Source: Akkermansiaceae bacterium
GTDB lineage: Bacteria > Verrucomicrobiota > Verrucomicrobiia > Verrucomicrobiales > Akkermansiaceae
DNA: 64,000 nt
Assembly: GCA_905181965.1 (NCBI GenBank)
Contig: CAJIZY010000021.1
Span: forward strand, 1-64,000
Reading direction: 5' to 3'
Shown: positions 45,355-60,831 of the stretch, piece after piece
How the letters are laid out: every line of letters begins with the position of its first letter
Position numbering within the stretch: position 1 is the stretch's first letter
Translations under genes and position numbers: made by a program
The notes under the pieces: generated by a model
Database searches by the model: none
Told to the model about the DNA's origin: nothing
Seen by the model: the letters and a program-made list of their open reading frames with translations, nothing else

Positions 45355-46029
45355 ATGAAACTTATTTTTGCTCTGACCCTCAGCTTCACCTCCTTCGCGG
45401 GAGCATTTAAGATTCCAAGAGAAGCGCACAATCTTGCGCAACTCGATGAAGTTCAGGAAAAAGCAACTAAAGCAAAGCAACCAATTGCTTTTGTCATCGC
45501 AGAGAAAAAAATGACCGCGACATGAGTTGATTGCCCAGGAGCCGTCAGTGTGTCGGCCAGTAAAGCAGTCCTCGGATTTTCAAAAAGTATTGTCGTCGAT
45601 GTCTCGGAAACCGCCGGTCTTCCAGCTCTTATTAAAAATGCCTACCGGACTGGAGGCGCATCAATTCCTATCGTCATCTTTACAGATCCGGGTGTGACCC
45701 AGATTTTTGGCCGTTACGATCACCCCGCGATGAAAAGCCAGAAGTATGGAACAATTTTCAAACCAGCACGCGATGGCGTCGCCAAAGCTAAAAAAGACGG
45801 TAATTTTCCCGGAGGAGGGAAGCCCGTCGTAGTCATCAAAGTTCAGGGTGGAAAAGTTGAAAGTTGGAAAAGTTCTGCCGGAACCGAAATCAGAGCCAAA
45901 CTCGTGGCTATTGAAGACGAAAAGACCTATCTTTTCGTCACTGAAGCTGGAAAAAAGATCCGTGCGACTGCCGCACAACTCGATGAAACTAGCGTCACAA
46001 AGGCGCGCAAGTTGGCAGGATTAAAGTAA
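45355..46029 (+). CDS. Secreted thioredoxin-like protein with in-frame TGA in a UxxC motif (candidate selenoprotein)
   Basis: From ATG 45355 there is a clean signal peptide (MKLIFALTLSFTSFAGA), then PIAFVIAEKKMTAT, TGA (45523-45525, codon 57), VDCPGAVSVSASKAVL, a cis-Pro strand ASIPIVIFTDPG (about 105) and a C-terminal SHD1-like region (ESWKSSAGTEIRAKLVAIED), ending at 46029 with 224 codons. The TGA stands where the first Cys of a CxxC active site belongs, giving UxxC. Coding quality is equal on both sides. A 17-nt hairpin follows 15 nt later. Sec insertion is inferred; a mutated TGC/TGT is the alternative. It would act as an exported redox protein. Confidence 0.72.
45541..45557 (+). promoter_or_regulatory. 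Putative bacterial SECIS hairpin of the thioredoxin-like gene
   Basis: GCCG pairs with CGGC. Inside are a T.T mismatch, one C-G pair and the loop AGTGT. It starts 15 nt after the TGA, with the loop about 20-22 nt away, within the usual bacterial range. The design is the same as at 41955-41971. Confidence 0.45.
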
Positions 46030-46154: not shown

Positions 46155-49100
46155 CTACTTCACACTCATGATGCCACGCATCAGGAGAGCATGTCCTGGA
46201 AAGGTACAAATGAAGTTGTATTCGCCTGCCTCGGTCGGAGCATTAAATTCGAGAGTCTCACTCTGCCCTTTCTCCAGCAACTTAGTCGCATGAAGGATGC
46301 TATCGGACTTGGGTAGGAATTGTTTCTTGAAACCATCAGCACCGAGAGCAATTGCTGCCGCCGCAACCGAATCAGCAGTCCCAGGCTTAGTGATCACCAA
46401 ATTATGAGGCATGAAATCGGGATTCACAAAAGTAAGCTTCACTTTTTTACTTGCATCTTTTGTTGACCTTCTTCACGTCGAATTGGATCTTCTCAACAAT
46501 CGCATTCACTCGGATCTCAGTCAGTGAGGGCATGTCCTTGACTCCCCCAGGGATGATCTTCATCTCCTCTTCTTTCTCGATTTCCTGTTTCCCTTTGGTC
46601 GGATCGGCAGGTCCCCACCAATGCTTGACGGTCTTAGCCCCCTGAGAAACGTGTGGATCAACTGATTTCAGAACGAGATCAAGAAGATCAGTGTTGCGCA
46701 CGTTGTGCTGTTGGTGAACCCAAAGTGCTTCGAGCATAGGAATACCATCTTCCTTCTTTGAAGGATTAAACTGCTTCACCCAAGCCTGGGTCGCCTTGAT
46801 GACCTCGTTGGTGTCGCGCTCACTAATTTCCACGCGAGTACGGTGACGGACATACATGTCCGGGTGTTTAAAATTTTCAAGGAGTTGAGTCATGGAAGCA
46901 CCATCAATTTTGACAGGCTTTTGAAGTGGCTTCTTCGTATTCACCAAACGATAGATTCGACCGTGCTCCTTATCACGATTTGGGTCGCGCACGTTGTGCT
47001 GCATGTGCCCGATGATCACATTATGCCAGTCGGCAATGTAAAGCGCTCCATCCTCGCCGAAAATGGCGTCAGTAGGACGGAAATTACCATCGCTACTACG
47101 AATAAGTTCAGCAGCTGGAGTTCCCCAGACTTCGCCAGACTTATACTTCTTTTCTTCAAAGCCGTCGCGATGAAGATCATATTGTTTGATGCCCAGATAA
47201 CCAATGGTGTTACAGAGAATGAAATTCTGCTGCATCTCATCTGGGAAGTTGGTGCCCGAAATGATCGCGTCAGCGGCTACCGGACGAACTTCCTTATTCA
47301 CCAGAGGAAACATTTTGAAGCCATCGCCATTGGAACGGACCTGATACGAACGGCCACCTGTGCCATCATTTGCATAGAGGTAACCCCATTGATCAAAACT
47401 GGTGCCATGGGGATTCGGGCTATTGCCAGCGACTAGTGAAACGGTGTAACGGCGTGGATCAAAACGATACATCGCGGATGAACCGGTAGTCAGAGAAGGC
47501 CCCCACGGAGTCTCATGATTGTGCTGTAGGAAAATTCCACTTTGCCAGTAGATCCCACCATCGGGTCCAAAGATTAAGTTATTGGCAGCGTGATGAGTAT
47601 CGGAAGACCCAATTCCCTGCATGATGACATAGCGAACGTCGGCAACGTCATCGCCGTCGGTGTCTTTCAGAAAAATAATATCCGGCTGGCTGGTAACGAT
47701 CACCCCACCATTCCAGAATTCAAAACCGAGCGGGTTATGAACTTTGGCGAATTCCTTCACTTTATCGGCTTTACCGTCCTTGTCGGTATCCTCGAAGATT
47801 AGAAGCGAATCATTCATCTTCTTAAGCGGTTCCCACTTCGGATAAGTCGCCCAAGCGGCAGCCCAGAGACGACCTTTACCGTCAACTTGAAGCTGAACAG
47901 GGTTGGCCAACTCAGGGAACATTTTCTCATCTGCAAAGAGATTCACTTTGAATCCCTCGGGGACATTCATCTTCTTAAGACCCTCTTCTCCACTGAGATA
48001 TTTCAGGTTCCCTTCCTTGGACTTGCTGGAGCTACGAGATCCGCCGCCGACATTAGAAATTACAGGAATTGCCTTAGGAGTATTGCTATCACTGACTCTA
48101 TATTTTTCACCTTGAGCCTTTGCCCAGATTTGCGGATCGCGGTTCGCAGTCATGACATCGAGCATCTTGAGCTCATGCTGAAGCACCTGCGCATTAGTCT
48201 GGCCGTCAACAAATTTCAATCCGGAGCGCCCACCCCAAACATCATTCCCGTCGGTCGCGCGGTAGCGGTTGTGCCAATGCCAGTTTTTATCAAGGACTGC
48301 TTCACGAAGCGGTTGCTGACTGGGAGAGGCCACAATTTCCTTCTTTAAGAGAGCCTTTGCCAACACCTCGCCAATGAGACGGTTCCCATCCTCGTTCAGA
48401 TGAATCCCATTGAGCGTCAGTAGTGATTTAGCCGTTCCATAGAGCTTAATAGATGGGTGATAGAGATCGACGAAGCTAACTCCATTTTTATCGGCAGCCA
48501 CGCGAGTTGCTTCGGTCATTGCAAGGAGCCGCTTGTTGTTGGCACGTCCTGTTGGGAGATTACGATCTCGGAGATTTTCATGACCGATCGGACTACAGAG
48601 AACGATGCGTGGAAAGCTCTCGCCATTCGGCATAGCCTTACGAAATTCCGCGATCATTTTAGTAAGATTCTCCTCATGATCCTCAGGTTTGGTATCGAAG
48701 GATTCGTTATAGCCAAACATCGCGATGATAACGTCAGCACCAACTTGCTGGAGATACTGGGGCATGGAAGTGAATCCGCGCGAACGCGGATATTTGTTCG
48801 GGCGATCTCCAGTAAGGCCCATATGCCGAAATTTAAGTTCCATTCCCGGGGTTGCAGACTGGATTAAAGTCTCGGTCCAACCATCATGCTGCATTCGGTC
48901 GGCCAGACCATTACCAACGATGGCCACGGTGTCGCCTTTCTGAAACTTAAAGGGAGCAGGATCTCGATGGCCGACTGGCACACTTACTGTTTTCGCAATT
49001 TTCCCATCGGCGCCGACGTAGGCCACATCGCCACCCCTTTTGAGATTAAAGACGACGGCTGTCTCGGGAGCTGTGATACTCTTGGATGTGAAAACCTCCT

Positions 49101-49500
49101 TTTTTTTGGCGTCCAGCAAGCTCAGTGTGAACCCATCGAGACGCTTCCCAAGATCTCCTTCGTTTCGATTCCAAACCGAGATCGAATCAACCTTGGAGGT
49201 TTTGCCAAGATCGATCTCCCACCATGCGTCTTTCTTCCCTTCAATCGTGTGAGTTTGACCACCAGAGCTGAAACCGGGATTCTTATTACCATCGATGGCG
49301 CGCTCGGCACCGGCATTGTTCGAAGTTGTCGATTGGCTGGCTTTTCCGGAGCGAGCGATGTTCTTCGCACCTGACATTACCTCAACTTCAGCGAGGGTCA
49401 GCGTGCGGCCTTTACCAGGGAGCTCAATCCGGACAAAGCGAGCTTCCTTCTGAGCAGAAGCCAAGGAACTTAGGGCGAGTATTGGAAGAAGAAACTTCAT
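46155..49500 (-). pseudogene. PVC-type dehydrogenase with discoidin, SGNH and azurin domains, one-base frameshift
   Basis: From ATG 49500 (signal [17 protein letters not shown]): an F5/8 type C-like domain (to about 155), an SGNH hydrolase ([15 protein letters not shown], then [18 protein letters not shown]), a membrane-bound-dehydrogenase beta-propeller ([20 protein letters not shown], then [16 protein letters not shown]) and helical repeats. The frame stops at 46447 after [11 protein letters not shown]. Removing one A (T run 46458-46461 on plus) continues [20 protein letters not shown] into an azurin-like copper domain ending at 46155. Cys/His ligands are seen in FICTFPGHALLMRG. No heme CxxCH is present. 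It probably acts on sugars or their esters outside the cytoplasm. Confidence 0.8.
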
Positions 49501-49581
49501 AGATCGGACTGCCACCTACGGCAGGAAGGCTGAGCTTATTTCAGGAAAGAACTGAGAGCAATCTACAAAAGCGCCAACTCG

Positions 49582-55903: not shown

Positions 55904-58204
55904 CTAAAAAACAACTTCATCCTCACCAAGGATCTGTATCTCAGTCTCGAGAACCACGCCCCTATCTTCCTTTGCCTTCGCTTTGATCTTCTCGATTAAC
56001 GAAAGGACATCAGAAGCACTGGCCTTCCCTCGATTAACGATAAAATTACCATGCTCCGGCGACACTTCGGCCTTGCCTACCCCAGTCTCTTTCAAGCCCA
56101 TCTCATCGATCAATTGACCCGCACCACAGACTGCGGGGTTTTTGAATGTGCACCCAGCACTCGCAGCCTTCGGCTGGGTTGTATTGCGATGATGGCGAGA
56201 TTCATTAAGCTTATCCTGTATCGCTTTTTGATCTGAGGGAACTCCAGCGAAGGTCGCCTTCAGAGCATAATTCCGGCGAAGTTCGGGGACGTTGCGGTAA
56301 TAGAATTTTATCTCATCACGCTTGCGCGTTCTAATCTCTCCATCCTCATCCAAAAAAGTTACTGCGACAACTTGATCGAAAGTTTCCACACCCATTGCTC
56401 CGGCATTCATACGCAGCCCGCCTCCGACATTCCCCGGGATTCCTTCCATCCATTCAAATCCTCCAATGCCGTGCTCACGTGCTATACTGGCAACCTTTTT
56501 GAAGCGAACTCCAACACCTGCCGTGATCGTAGTCCCCTCAACAGTGACCGCAGAAAAAGCACCGCCTGCCGGATGAATAACAGCCCCACGAATTCCTCCA
56601 TCTCGAATCAACAGATTAGATCCACGCCCCACAATTCGCACTGGAATCCCCCGAGCTTTGCAGAAAGAAACAGAATCGGCTAATTGCTCAAATTCCGATG
56701 GCTCAATCCAAAACTGAGCCGGGCCTCCAACGCGCATCGTACTATGACGCGACATCGGTTCGTAAAGTTTGATTGCCGAGACTTTCGTTTCATTCCGGAT
56801 TTCTTCTAAAACTTTAAGATCGCGAATGATCTTATTGCCAGCTTCATGAACATTCCCAGCCCCCAAAGTTAGAAAAAGATCACCCTCCGCTAGAATATTC
56901 CCCACCGCGTAATGCGCGGTTGAAAGATCCGGGACGAAAGACGCCTTCGTAGAGCCGTTGGCTAAAATTGCATCAACAATTGTCTGCCCACTCACACCAG
57001 GAATAGGATCTTCGCTGGCCGCGTAAATATCAGTCACGAAAACTAGATCGGCAGCTTGTAAGGTCTTACCAAAATCATCAGCTAGCTTATGAGTCCGGCT
57101 ATAGCGATGAGGCTGGAAGAGCACAATCACGCGGCCCGGCTCGTAACTACGAGCAGTCTGCAAGGTAGCTGCAACCTCCGTCGGATGATGTCCATAATCA
57201 TCCACAATACGATATCGCTTGCTCAGATGCTTGGTTTCGAATCGTCTCTTAGCACCCGCAAAAGAACTAAGGGCCTGATTCATTTTTGAAAAATCAACCC
57301 CACAACTTGAAGCCACTGCGATTGCTCCCAAAGCATTCAATACATTATGTAGACCAGGAATACCAAGTTGAACCCTGCCCAGCTCCTGACCTTTATAGTT
57401 GACCGTAAAACTCACTGTTCCGATCTGCCCAGAAAGATCAGTCGCAGTCCAATCGGCCTCCTTCCAACCATACGAAATGGAATTGTCTCGTGTTCCGCAA
57501 AGCTGAGTCGCTTCTTCACACTCACAGCAATAAAAAATGGAACCCGAAGTCTGGTTCAACAAGTTATTAAAAACCTCACGGATTTGCGCAATCCCTCGCG
57601 TGTAGTGGTCAAGATGCTCTTCCTCGACATTCAGCACAATTGCGTGTTTTGGATGATACAGAGCCAACGTGCCATCCGATTCATCACCCTCCGCCACCAA
57701 ATACTCACCATCTTGGTTCCATTCGGCATTAGAACCCAAAACTGGGATCTCCGCCCCCACATAATGACAAGGCATAAGATCTCCTTGGCGAAGAATATGC
57801 GCGATCATTGCCGAAGTAGTTGTCTTCCCATGGGTGCCCGAAACCACTACTCCTGCCTTTGTGTGAAGAATAGCCGCTAGGCATTCTGCTCGCCGAAAGG
57901 TCGCAATTTTCTGAGCTAAAGCCTCGGAAAGGGCGGGGTTTGTCGAACGAATCGCTGAGGAATAGATCACCGCATCCGCACCCTTGACGGCTTCCCCTGA
58001 ATGCGGAGTAGAAAAATCGAGCCCTAACTTACGGAGACGCTCCGTCTCCCCAGAAGTCACTCGATCGGATCCGCTAACCCGATGGCCCATCTGAATCAAG
58101 AGCCGAGCTAACCCACTCATACCCGAACCTGCCACGCCGATTAAGTGAACCCGGAGTGGTTGTTCCGGATTTAAAATTTTCTCGCTGAATTGCTCAATAG
58201 TCAT
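55904..58204 (-). CDS. murC-murB: MurC-MurB fusion: UDP-MurNAc L-alanine ligase / UDP-MurNAc dehydrogenase
   Basis: A 766-residue fusion. The MurC part (residues 1-465) has GVAGSGMSGLARLLIQMGHR, the ATP motif VVSGTHGKTTTSAMIAHIL (about 115) and EEEHLDHYTRG (about 195). The MurB part (about 480-766) has STMRVGGPAQFWIEP, the FAD motif RIVGRGSNLLIRDGGIRGAV (about 545), EWMEGIPGNVGGGLRMNAGA (about 605) and GCTFKNPA. MurB makes UDP-MurNAc and MurC adds L-Ala, so the fusion joins consecutive steps. It follows murG with a 4-bp overlap. Confidence 0.93.
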   Translation of the reverse strand: MTIEQFSEKILNPEQPLRVHLIGVAGSGMSGLARLLIQMGHRVSGSDRVTSGETERLRKLGLDFSTPHSGEAVKGADAVIYSSAIRSTNPALSEALAQKIATFRRAECLAAILHTKAGVVVSGTHGKTTTSAMIAHILRQGDLMPCHYVGAEIPVLGSNAEWNQDGEYLVAEGDESDGTLALYHPKHAIVLNVEEEHLDHYTRGIAQIREVFNNLLNQTSGSIFYCCECEEATQLCGTRDNSISYGWKEADWTATDLSGQIGTVSFTVNYKGQELGRVQLGIPGLHNVLNALGAIAVASSCGVDFSKMNQALSSFAGAKRRFETKHLSKRYRIVDDYGHHPTEVAATLQTARSYEPGRVIVLFQPHRYSRTHKLADDFGKTLQAADLVFVTDIYAASEDPIPGVSGQTIVDAILANGSTKASFVPDLSTAHYAVGNILAEGDLFLTLGAGNVHEAGNKIIRDLKVLEEIRNETKVSAIKLYEPMSRHSTMRVGGPAQFWIEPSEFEQLADSVSFCKARGIPVRIVGRGSNLLIRDGGIRGAVIHPAGGAFSAVTVEGTTITAGVGVRFKKVASIAREHGIGGFEWMEGIPGNVGGGLRMNAGAMGVETFDQVVAVTFLDEDGEIRTRKRDEIKFYYRNVPELRRNYALKATFAGVPSDQKAIQDKLNESRHHRNTTQPKAASAGCTFKNPAVCGAGQLIDEMGLKETGVGKAEVSPEHGNFIVNRGKASASDVLSLIEKIKAKAKEDRGVVLETEIQILGEDEVVF

Positions 58205-59271
58205 CCTTCAATAACGTTAACGATTTGGGCCGCGGCGGCGGGATTCGTGAGATTCAGCATCGATTCCGACATATTTTTAAGAATTCCATCATCGAGTTCA
58301 GACAACATGTCAGTGATCGTTTTAGCCTCGAGATCTTTCTCATGAATTAAGATCGCAGCCCCTGCTTTTTCGAAGACCATCGCATTAGCTGTTTGATGGT
58401 CATCAGCAGCGAAGGGGAACGGCACCAAAAGCGCGGGCAACCCTGCATGGCTCAACTCTGTCAGAGACGAAGCCCCAGATCTCGCCACACAAAAATCACT
58501 CACCGCATAGGCTGCCGCCATACCTTCACAAAATGCGAGTACCTTGTAACCATCACGCTTGCCCACCTGTTCAGAAAGATTGCAGAACGCTGCCTGCCCA
58601 GTCAAGTGAAGAACCTGCCATGCCGTGCCCTCCGTTCCTTCGGCAACTAGTTCATTAAGACGTCGCGCACCCTGTGACCCCCCCATCACGAGGAGCGTTT
58701 TCTTTAATGGATCAAGACCGAATTTTTCGCATACCGTTTGGCGTAATGGAAGCTTCTCAAGCTCGTCACGAACCGGAGTGCCGGTATGAATCACCTCGAT
58801 ATCAGGAAAGTAAGCTGAAGCTTCCTCCAATCCCACCAAAACCGCAGTACAACGCTTGGCCGTCATACGATTAGAACGCCCAGGAATAGCATTGGAGTCA
58901 TGCACATAGGTTCGAAGTCCTTTTTTTGACCCAGCGACTACCGGAGGAAAAGAAGTAAACCCTCCCATTCCAAGAACCACATTTGCTTCCTCACGATCAA
59001 TGATAAGGCCGCACTGCTTGATTGTCTTGCGCAGACGCCACAGAAAAGAAATCATTTTGAGCGAAAACGTCGGCGGCTTCGCAATGGCCCTGACAGTCTC
59101 AAAACGAAGATCCGAGTATTTTTGGGAAGCCTGAGCATCGACTTTCTTTTCAGAAATCAGAAGCAGGACCTTGTGCCCCCGTGCCTTAAGCTCTTGGGCA
59201 ACAGCGATTCCAGGAAATAAATGCCCTCCGGTTCCGCCGCAGGCGATTATGATTTTTTGAGAATTAGACAC
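58201..59271 (-). CDS. murG: UDP-GlcNAc transferase MurG
   Basis: A 356-residue GT28 enzyme. IACGGTGGHLFPGIAVAQEL (residues 9-28), then VLGMGGFTSFPPVVA (about 99), DSNAIPGRSNRMTA (about 122), LLVMGGSQGARRLNELVAEG (about 193) and SGASSLTELSHAGLPALLVP (about 270) are all canonical. It adds GlcNAc to lipid I, giving lipid II, on the inner face of the membrane. It precedes murC-murB. Confidence 0.95.
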   Translation of the reverse strand: MSNSQKIIIACGGTGGHLFPGIAVAQELKARGHKVLLLISEKKVDAQASQKYSDLRFETVRAIAKPPTFSLKMISFLWRLRKTIKQCGLIIDREEANVVLGMGGFTSFPPVVAGSKKGLRTYVHDSNAIPGRSNRMTAKRCTAVLVGLEEASAYFPDIEVIHTGTPVRDELEKLPLRQTVCEKFGLDPLKKTLLVMGGSQGARRLNELVAEGTEGTAWQVLHLTGQAAFCNLSEQVGKRDGYKVLAFCEGMAAAYAVSDFCVARSGASSLTELSHAGLPALLVPFPFAADDHQTANAMVFEKAGAAILIHEKDLEAKTITDMLSELDDGILKNMSESMLNLTNPAAAAQIVNVIEG

Positions 59272-59630
59272 TAGCTACGCCAAAACCTAGGGCCTGAGAT
59301 CAGTTTTTTGAACTTCGAAATGCAGGAAATATCGCCTTTCTGTCGCAAGCAGCTTATTAACATTTAGCTTCACCCAAAAAATTAGCCAATCAGTGATCCA
59401 AAACATTCAGCCAAACTTCCTTCGACAAACAGCGCTCTGATTTGGTTCAGAGTAAATTAAGTATTTCATCTTTTGAGACCGCTCCAGATAACCGCCACGC
59501 TAGCGGCGCTTCCTTGGGTATTCTCATTCCGGAAGGTCGCACCTAGCCCTTCTTAAGCCACCCACCCTGATGCTTGATCGTCGCGCTTTCAAATTTACCG
59601 AAAAAAAGTATCGTTTCCTCCAATAAACTC
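59272..59630. other. 359-bp intergenic region between murG and argD
   Basis: This is the divergent spacer between murG (minus) and argD (plus). I found no RNA gene, repeat or convincing operator. The frame open before argD (from 59574) is not needed, as ATG 59631 fits the family. Confidence 0.4.
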
Positions 59631-60831
59631 ATGACCACCACTGAGAAAACAAAACAGTATGTCCTAGAAACCTATGGGAGATTTCCCCTTACCGTAACCC
59701 GCGGTGAAGGCACTAGAGTGTGGGATGAGCTTGGTCGTGAATATCTCGACTTCTGCTCAGGTATCGCGGTTTGCTCGCTGGGGCATTGCCACCCCGCCTT
59801 GACACAAGCCATCGCGGAACAATCGGAAACTCTGATGCATTGTTCCAATCTCTACTACATCGAGCAACAGGCTGACCTTGCTAAGCTCATTGTGGAAAAG
59901 GTCGTCGGACATCCGGGCAAGATCTTCTTCTCCAACTCCGGAGCGGAAGCGAATGATGGGCTCATCAAATTCGCACGGAGATTTGGGCAAGCCACCGGGC
60001 GCTACGATGTCATCACCTTCAACAAGTCCTTCCACGGTCGGACTATTGGAGCCATGACTGCGACCGCCCAGGCCAAAATCCACGAAGGCTTCGATCCTCT
60101 TCCGACCGGCTTCACTTACGTTGAGCCCAACGACCTTGATGCTGTCCAAGCCGCGCTCACTGACAAGACCATCGCCTTCCTCCTCGAGCCCATCCAGGGC
60201 GAAGGGGGGGTGAACCCGATGACCAAGGAATTTCTCGAAGGCCTTGCTGCTCTCGCTCAGAAAAAAGACCTCCTCCTTCTCCTCGATGAGTTTCTTGTCG
60301 ATGTGCTCCTGAAGCCGCTTCAAGTCAGCCATCAGGTCCTCAGTTGTCTTCTCGTGGGCCAAAGGCATGGGCGGTGGCTTCCCAATCGGCTCATTCTATG
60401 TTGCCGAAAAACACGCCCACCTCCTCGGCCCCGGCAGTCATGGCTCAACCTATGGAGGCAACGCCCTCGCCTGCGCCGCCTCCAAGGCGGTCATCGAAAC
60501 TATTATCGCGGAGAATCTTACCGAGAACGTCAAAACACGAGAAGCCCAAGTCCGAAAGATCATCGAGAGCTGGAATCATCCTGCCATCACCGAAGTTCGC
60601 GGATACGGTCTCCTTCTCGGAATCGCATTAGACTTCGATGCTCTTGTTGTCCCTGAAGGCAGCATACCATCCATTCTCCTGTGCACGGCCCTCATTAAGA
60701 AAGGTCTTTTAGTTCCACCGGCTGGCCCCGAAATCGTCAGACTTCTGCCTCCTCTCAATGTCAGCGCCGATGAAATAGACCAAGCACTCAAGTTGATCAA
60801 AGAAGCCCTCGACGCTCACCTCAAATCCTAG
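59631..60831 (+). pseudogene. argD: Acetylornithine aminotransferase-like gene, interrupted by an anomalous segment
   Basis: From ATG 59631 the protein is a normal class III aminotransferase: VWDELGREYLDFCSGIAVCS, then FFSNSGAEANDGLIKFARRF, SFHGRTIGAMTATAQ, FLLEPIQGEGGVNP and LLLLLDE. The next roughly 23 residues expected (VQxGxGRTG to PDA) are missing. In their place lie about 58 nt (60290-60347) that do not encode them. The frame then resumes differently with FSWAKGMGGGFPIGS (PLP Lys) and runs to 60831. It would catalyse the fourth step of arginine synthesis. As written it is non-functional. Confidence 0.82.

Follow-up and report, generated by a model that had tools for sequence, protein, structure and literature searches.

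An internal UGA almost certainly read as selenocysteine in a predicted exported thioredoxin-like protein of an Akkermansiaceae bacterium

The window, i.e., the whole stretch of 64,000 nucleotides analysed from the genome of a marine Akkermansiaceae bacterium, contains on its forward strand a coding sequence of 224 residues (45355–46029), which ends with TAA and has a single in-frame TGA, at codon 57 (45523–45525). Translation through this codon gives the motif UVDC, in which TGC codon 60 (45532–45534) would supply the resolving cysteine. The TGA and the following VDC had been noticed in an inspection of the letters alone (the sequence-only reading), with about 168 further codons in frame; the translation contains 167. 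Under translation table 11 the gene is split; of the pieces, just one ORF is of appreciable size, with 159 amino acids from GTG 45550, and it is the short and misplaced frame near 45550 that had been expected of gene callers. This GTG lies partly within the loop of an RNA hairpin (see below). Stops in the remaining two frames of 45355–46029 numbered 7 and 13, respectively.

The gene stands by itself, flanked by a divergent FAD oxidoreductase-like ORF and a convergent blue-copper-like one. Relatives retain this arrangement only in part, and nothing about function could be learned from the neighbourhood. The convergent ORF (46155–46442, reverse strand) resembles azurin/plastocyanin and is adjoined by an ORF of 1022 amino acids (46447–49515, reverse strand) with GDSL-like and dehydrogenase-like stretches; both were assigned by eye, and both stay beside the selenoprotein gene in several relatives. 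Elsewhere in the window, two overlapping ORFs in different frames of the forward strand (59574–60656 and 60367–60831) look by eye like one acetylornithine aminotransferase gene (ArgD), with a frameshift near 60300 that is either an assembly error or a sign of a damaged gene. An ORF of 766 amino acids (55904–58204, reverse strand), likewise judged by eye, has the look of a MurC-MurB fusion and is located directly downstream of a MurG-like ORF (58201–59271, reverse strand).

Residues 1–17 (MKLIFALTLSFTSFAGA, then F18; 45355–45405) have on reading by eye the appearance of a Sec-type signal peptide, with a predicted A-G-A cleavage site before F18; the fast evolution of the N-terminus in dN/dS comparisons and its low pLDDT are consistent with this. 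An AlphaFold2 model, computed with 49 family members (mean pLDDT 85.5, pTM 0.63), showed a thioredoxin fold and, C-terminal to it, a domain rich in beta structure. Its elements are strand 44–49, the motif at 57–60, helix 61–74, strand 77–82, helix 91–99, Pro105 and strands 106–110 and 117–121, i.e., thioredoxin topology. Pro105 (45667–45669), the cis-proline candidate, precedes a central strand of the fold and is one of five invariant columns in the 49 members, as is the Sec/Cys position; the column of C60 is nearly invariant. The signal peptide, the thioredoxin-like strands and the cis-proline strand proposed in the sequence-only reading are all recovered. Foldseek searches against the PDB retrieved thioredoxins as well as C-terminal domains of DsbD (E about 2e-3 to 2e-2), with probabilities up to 1.00 and TM scores, normalised by target, up to 0.59. 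Since no match against the PDB fell under E 0.001, only the fold class, and no specific relative, is claimed.

The C-terminal domain (approximately residues 160–224; 45832–46026) would appear to be of the SLA1 homology domain 1 (SHD1) type. Pfam SHD1 (PF03983) matched 10 of the 49 members (best E 1.4e-4), the window protein itself not being among them, and the family profile gave a weak match (E 0.0057) to the SHD1 structure of SLA1, 2hbp; the beta-rich character of the domain in the model agrees with this. Other proteins of the window's genome possess the same kind of C-terminal domain. A Pfam match to HgmA_C (E 0.04) and the Cake/SRP structure matches were regarded as chance or compositional.

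The read-through protein was searched against 116 related genomes, mostly metagenome assemblies, and homologues were found in 46; the nearest named relatives are metagenome assemblies of Akkermansiaceae and Verrucomicrobiales, whose loci seem to be identical with some of the records among the 116 and were counted only once. Homology to proteins of the same genus extends over the full length, at identities of 52–97%. Codon 57 is TGA in all 22 close homologues, never TAA or TAG, and TGA occupies the aligned position in 40 of the 116 genomes, down to about 20–25% identity, paralogues at 20–40% identity included. Close relatives have the motif UVDC or UVAC, paralogues UPTC, UATC or UGTC, and a distant subfamily UGPC; the TGA of the window gene falls in the Sec column of 47 UxxC members. 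Pairwise comparisons with the window gene yielded dN/dS values of 0.00–0.12 for codons 18–56 (up to 0.22 in the most diverged pair) and 0.03–0.12 for codons 58–149, both ranges being those of pairs without saturation at synonymous sites, and 0.07–0.24 for the C-terminal domain. Since the TGA is kept, dN/dS is low on both of its sides and the other frames are rich in stops, both halves constitute one coding sequence under selection.

Two members of the family have an unusual structure. The copy in genome G088 (L064, 183–875) has two in-frame TGA codons in the motif UGNUGPAA: a second Sec lies three residues upstream, the Cys that usually stands downstream is lost, and a strong hairpin follows the TGAs. 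Another copy (L056, G024:C14:10021–11094) appears to be frame-broken into a TGA-bearing N-terminal piece and a C-terminal piece, with no single open frame.

Cysteine at the Sec position (CPLA, CPLC and CPKC forms) was found in distant homologues only, and no Cys homologue was found within the window protein's own subfamily. In a tree of 57 rows the Sec state was strongly clustered (3 changes versus 16.2 in shuffles), with Sec members only in the subfamily of the window protein and the Cys members remote; the forks are too weak to tell whether Sec or Cys is ancestral. The genomes with Cys forms among the 116 (G044, G056 and G064) are all three without selA. A genus of the same family (g3), from which several genomes are single contigs, has the form TTCPLA, with Cys at the Sec position and the second Cys lost; a search for selA in one of its genomes (G052) was negative.

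A hairpin of the bacterial SECIS type is located at 45541–45557 on the forward strand. Its six-base arms, GCCGUC and GUCGGC with one U-U mismatch, enclose the five-base loop AGUGU, which starts 21 nt after the UGA; as in SECIS-type elements, the stem-loop lies immediately downstream of the UGA and has a G in its small apical loop. The loop conforms to AGUNY in 46 of 47 family sequences. Codons 63–67 (GCC GTC AGT GTG TCG) have the same bases at synonymous positions in practically every one of the 22 close homologues, versus an agreement of 22–39% predicted from codon usage, and the top windows of synonymous conservation in the gene fall in this region. Among 39 distinct sequences the helix had 30 two-sided changes versus 7.1 in shuffles (a number reached in 0 of 500), and 86% of the cells were paired, a value which dropped to 15–55% when the pairing was slid by 1–3 bases; the slid controls and the frozen synonymous sites are the better support for the hairpin, since the shuffles ignore relatedness.

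A covariance model of the hairpin (R1) scored the window gene at 49.9 bits; its second-best match in the genome reached 17.1 bits. Six Sec relatives kept out of the model, which are close to the training members, scored 50–54 bits, and loci with Cys or with neither residue at most 11.3 bits; the hairpin was absent from the Cys homologues tested. A further selenoprotein gene of the same type was not detected in the genome with R1, the remaining matches being at or below about 17 bits. Two R1 matches in the window, 60655–60694 (reverse strand) and 58607–58648 (forward strand), are not surrounded by a coherent frame and were treated as chance.

The genome of the window (2.64 Mb assembly, 61.6% complete) contains selA, selB and selD, all of them over the curated cut-offs. 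The selD gene is itself a selenoprotein gene, with an in-frame TGA in the context SCGGUASK (L141, G000:C22:7000–8400) and, after its UGA, a hairpin of its own with an AGUUU loop. In this 61.6% complete assembly the search for tRNA-Sec gave nothing above the gathering score, though near relatives (for example G020, G025 and G017) contain one. Among the 116 genomes, selA was present in 37 of the 40 with the TGA gene versus 23 of the 76 others (Fisher p = 4.8e-11, a count that ignores relatedness). The three TGA-gene genomes without a selA match (G001, G023 and G074) are 72–86% complete, and all have selD.

If the TGA were a real stop, the locus would be a pseudogene, or two genes for an exported peptide of 56 amino acids and the protein of 159 amino acids from GTG 45550, exactly the pieces which table 11 yields. 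We consider this very improbable, since the codon is invariably TGA, and not one of the other two stops, in the close homologues and recurs in 40 genomes, since purifying selection is strong on both sides of it, and since the presence of the TGA form tracks that of selA; moreover, the sequence VDCPGAV between TGA and GTG is conserved and the GTG itself falls within the conserved hairpin. Still less probable is a general change of the code or an unspecific suppression, by which the UGA would be read through and no selenocysteine inserted. The open frame through the TGA would suit such a change; however, TGA terminates 12 of the 48 window ORFs of at least 200 amino acids (some of these ORFs being mechanical), and 10 Sec members of the family themselves end in TGA. 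The codon also occupies the place of the attacking residue in a redox motif, where distant homologues have Cys, and it is accompanied by the hairpin and the Sec genes. Both readings were rejected.

As judged from sequence data, the internal UGA almost certainly encodes the active-site selenocysteine of a thioredoxin-like enzyme that is predicted to be exported. This is in essence the exported UxxC selenoenzyme of the sequence-only reading, which had looked for support to homologues, Ka/Ks and selenium genes: homologues have TGA at codon 57, the more distant ones in part Cys, dN/dS is far lower than 1 upstream and downstream of it, selA, selB and selD are present, and the covarying hairpin adds to these. 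Beyond that reading, the analysis brought to light the SHD1-like domain, the hairpin, the wide spread of the family and its lack of a close Cys relative. The complete explanation, for which we estimate a probability of about 0.9, is an exported thiol:disulfide oxidoreductase of the thioredoxin fold with Sec57-V-D-Cys60 and an SHD1-like domain, made by SelB- and hairpin-dependent recoding. Recoding by this mechanism is very likely. The predicted enzymatic role is probable; it is deduced from the signal peptide, the thioredoxin fold, the invariant Sec/Cys and Pro105, and a DsbD-type membrane protein (DsbD_TM) encoded in the same genome.

Built upon the computed frame, conserved TGA, hairpin, Sec genes and fold class, the following course of events may be envisaged. 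SelB with Sec-tRNA-Sec would bind the hairpin at 45541–45557, and selenocysteine would be inserted at UGA 45523. The product would be placed in the periplasm or at the surface, where Sec57 could act in the reductase direction and attack a substrate at its disulfides, or at oxidised sulfur groups of a similar kind, with Cys60 resolving the mixed selenide-sulfide. The oxidised enzyme would then be reduced again by a periplasmic electron donor, for which the DsbD-like protein of the genome is the most likely candidate, and the C-terminal SHD1-like domain may target the substrate.

Some weight, corresponding to an unlikely but not far-fetched case, is given to a true selenoprotein that is a peroxidase or an exported selenium- or metal-binding protein on a thioredoxin scaffold and has no thiol:disulfide reductase activity. 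Entries of Table 1 in PMC13188914 include peroxiredoxin-like and metal-binding types among thioredoxin-fold selenoproteins. The second Cys has been lost in the Cys forms of genus g3 (TCPLA), a resolving Cys being therefore dispensable in some cases, and the UGNU protein of G088 is without the downstream Cys as well. On the other hand, U57xxC60, of which the first position is invariant and the second nearly so in the 49 members, constitutes together with the invariant cis-proline candidate the classical layout for disulfide exchange, and a DsbD-type partner is available in the genome. The oxidoreductase remains the preferred explanation.

On a wider scale, the gene could represent a family of exported selenoenzymes, so far undescribed and spread throughout the Verrucomicrobiota, with a thioredoxin fold and an SHD1-like domain, whose main UVDC/UPTC subfamily has no Cys version at all and which would be a primary reason for these bacteria to keep the selenium machinery, lineages without selA holding only remote Cys forms. 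This view is tentative, and its chances are put at slightly under even. If it is true, the family would have escaped search methods that depend on close Cys homologues. A Sec-only subfamily matters for discovery: for deep-Sep, to give one example, it is stated (PMC12013277) that selenoproteins without Cys homologues may be identified incorrectly and may be filtered out. With this gene, a phylum unmentioned in the selenoprotein surveys considered here gains a widespread family of selenoproteins. The locus also demonstrates a systematic annotation error, since the called start would fall within the SECIS hairpin and standard callers would truncate the gene. Finally, it provides a good test case for the Sec/Cys question, since Sec and Cys forms are sorted according to whether selA is present, and a single family includes both UxxC and UGPC variants.

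Comparison with known families was made through NCBIfam, including the models of catalogued selenoproteins, where no family matched the window protein and no credible selenoprotein-family match was obtained among the 49 members; all Pfam matches of the window protein were below cut-off. A 2026 inventory of prokaryotic selenoproteins contains many thioredoxin-like UxxC families (PMC13188914); in the portions of its main text covered here, Verrucomicrobia were unmentioned and no Trx/SHD1 entry was found. No description of the family was met in the corresponding main-text portions of PMC2398784, PMC1088965, PMC12013277, PMC9312934, PMC5029168, PMC1794560 and PMC4807772. As neither NCBIfam nor Pfam claims the family and these texts do not describe it, we regard it as a selenoprotein family that is uncatalogued but belongs to a well-known kind. 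It is a large one, and may partially overlap with GOS Trx-like 3, for which the libraries had no model. The GOS/Sargasso Trx-like 1–3 and GOS_C proteins in Table 2 of PMC2398784 are likewise marine bacterial UxxC selenoproteins of the thioredoxin fold; the GOS_C hypothetical protein model (NF045500) gave no match in the NCBIfam search of the family.

The nearest relevant NCBIfam models, likewise of bacterial thioredoxin-fold (seleno)proteins, are NF041199 (Trx7/PDZ domain-containing (seleno)protein) and TIGR02187 (PDO_seleno_TRX), with weak matches in 2 and 10 of the 49 members, respectively (best E 0.07 and 0.005), and none in the window protein; Trx7/PDZ appears with CxxU in Table 1 of PMC13188914. 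In Pfam, Thioredoxin_9 (PF14595) and Thioredoxin_7 (PF13899) share the thioredoxin fold, a CxxC-type motif where the first long helix begins behind the first strand, and the cis-proline candidate. Their profiles matched 13 and 5 of the 49 members weakly (best E 7e-4 and 2e-4), the window protein being below the curated cut-off (17.1 versus 25 bits), and they differ from it by its Sec in place of the first Cys and its additional SHD1-like domain. Thioredoxin-like disulfide reductases are resembled in fold, with matches to thioredoxin h and to the C-terminal domains of DsbD. The SHD1 of 2hbp is a module of SLA1, a yeast cytoskeleton assembly control protein, whereas here the domain follows a redox domain that is predicted to be exported.
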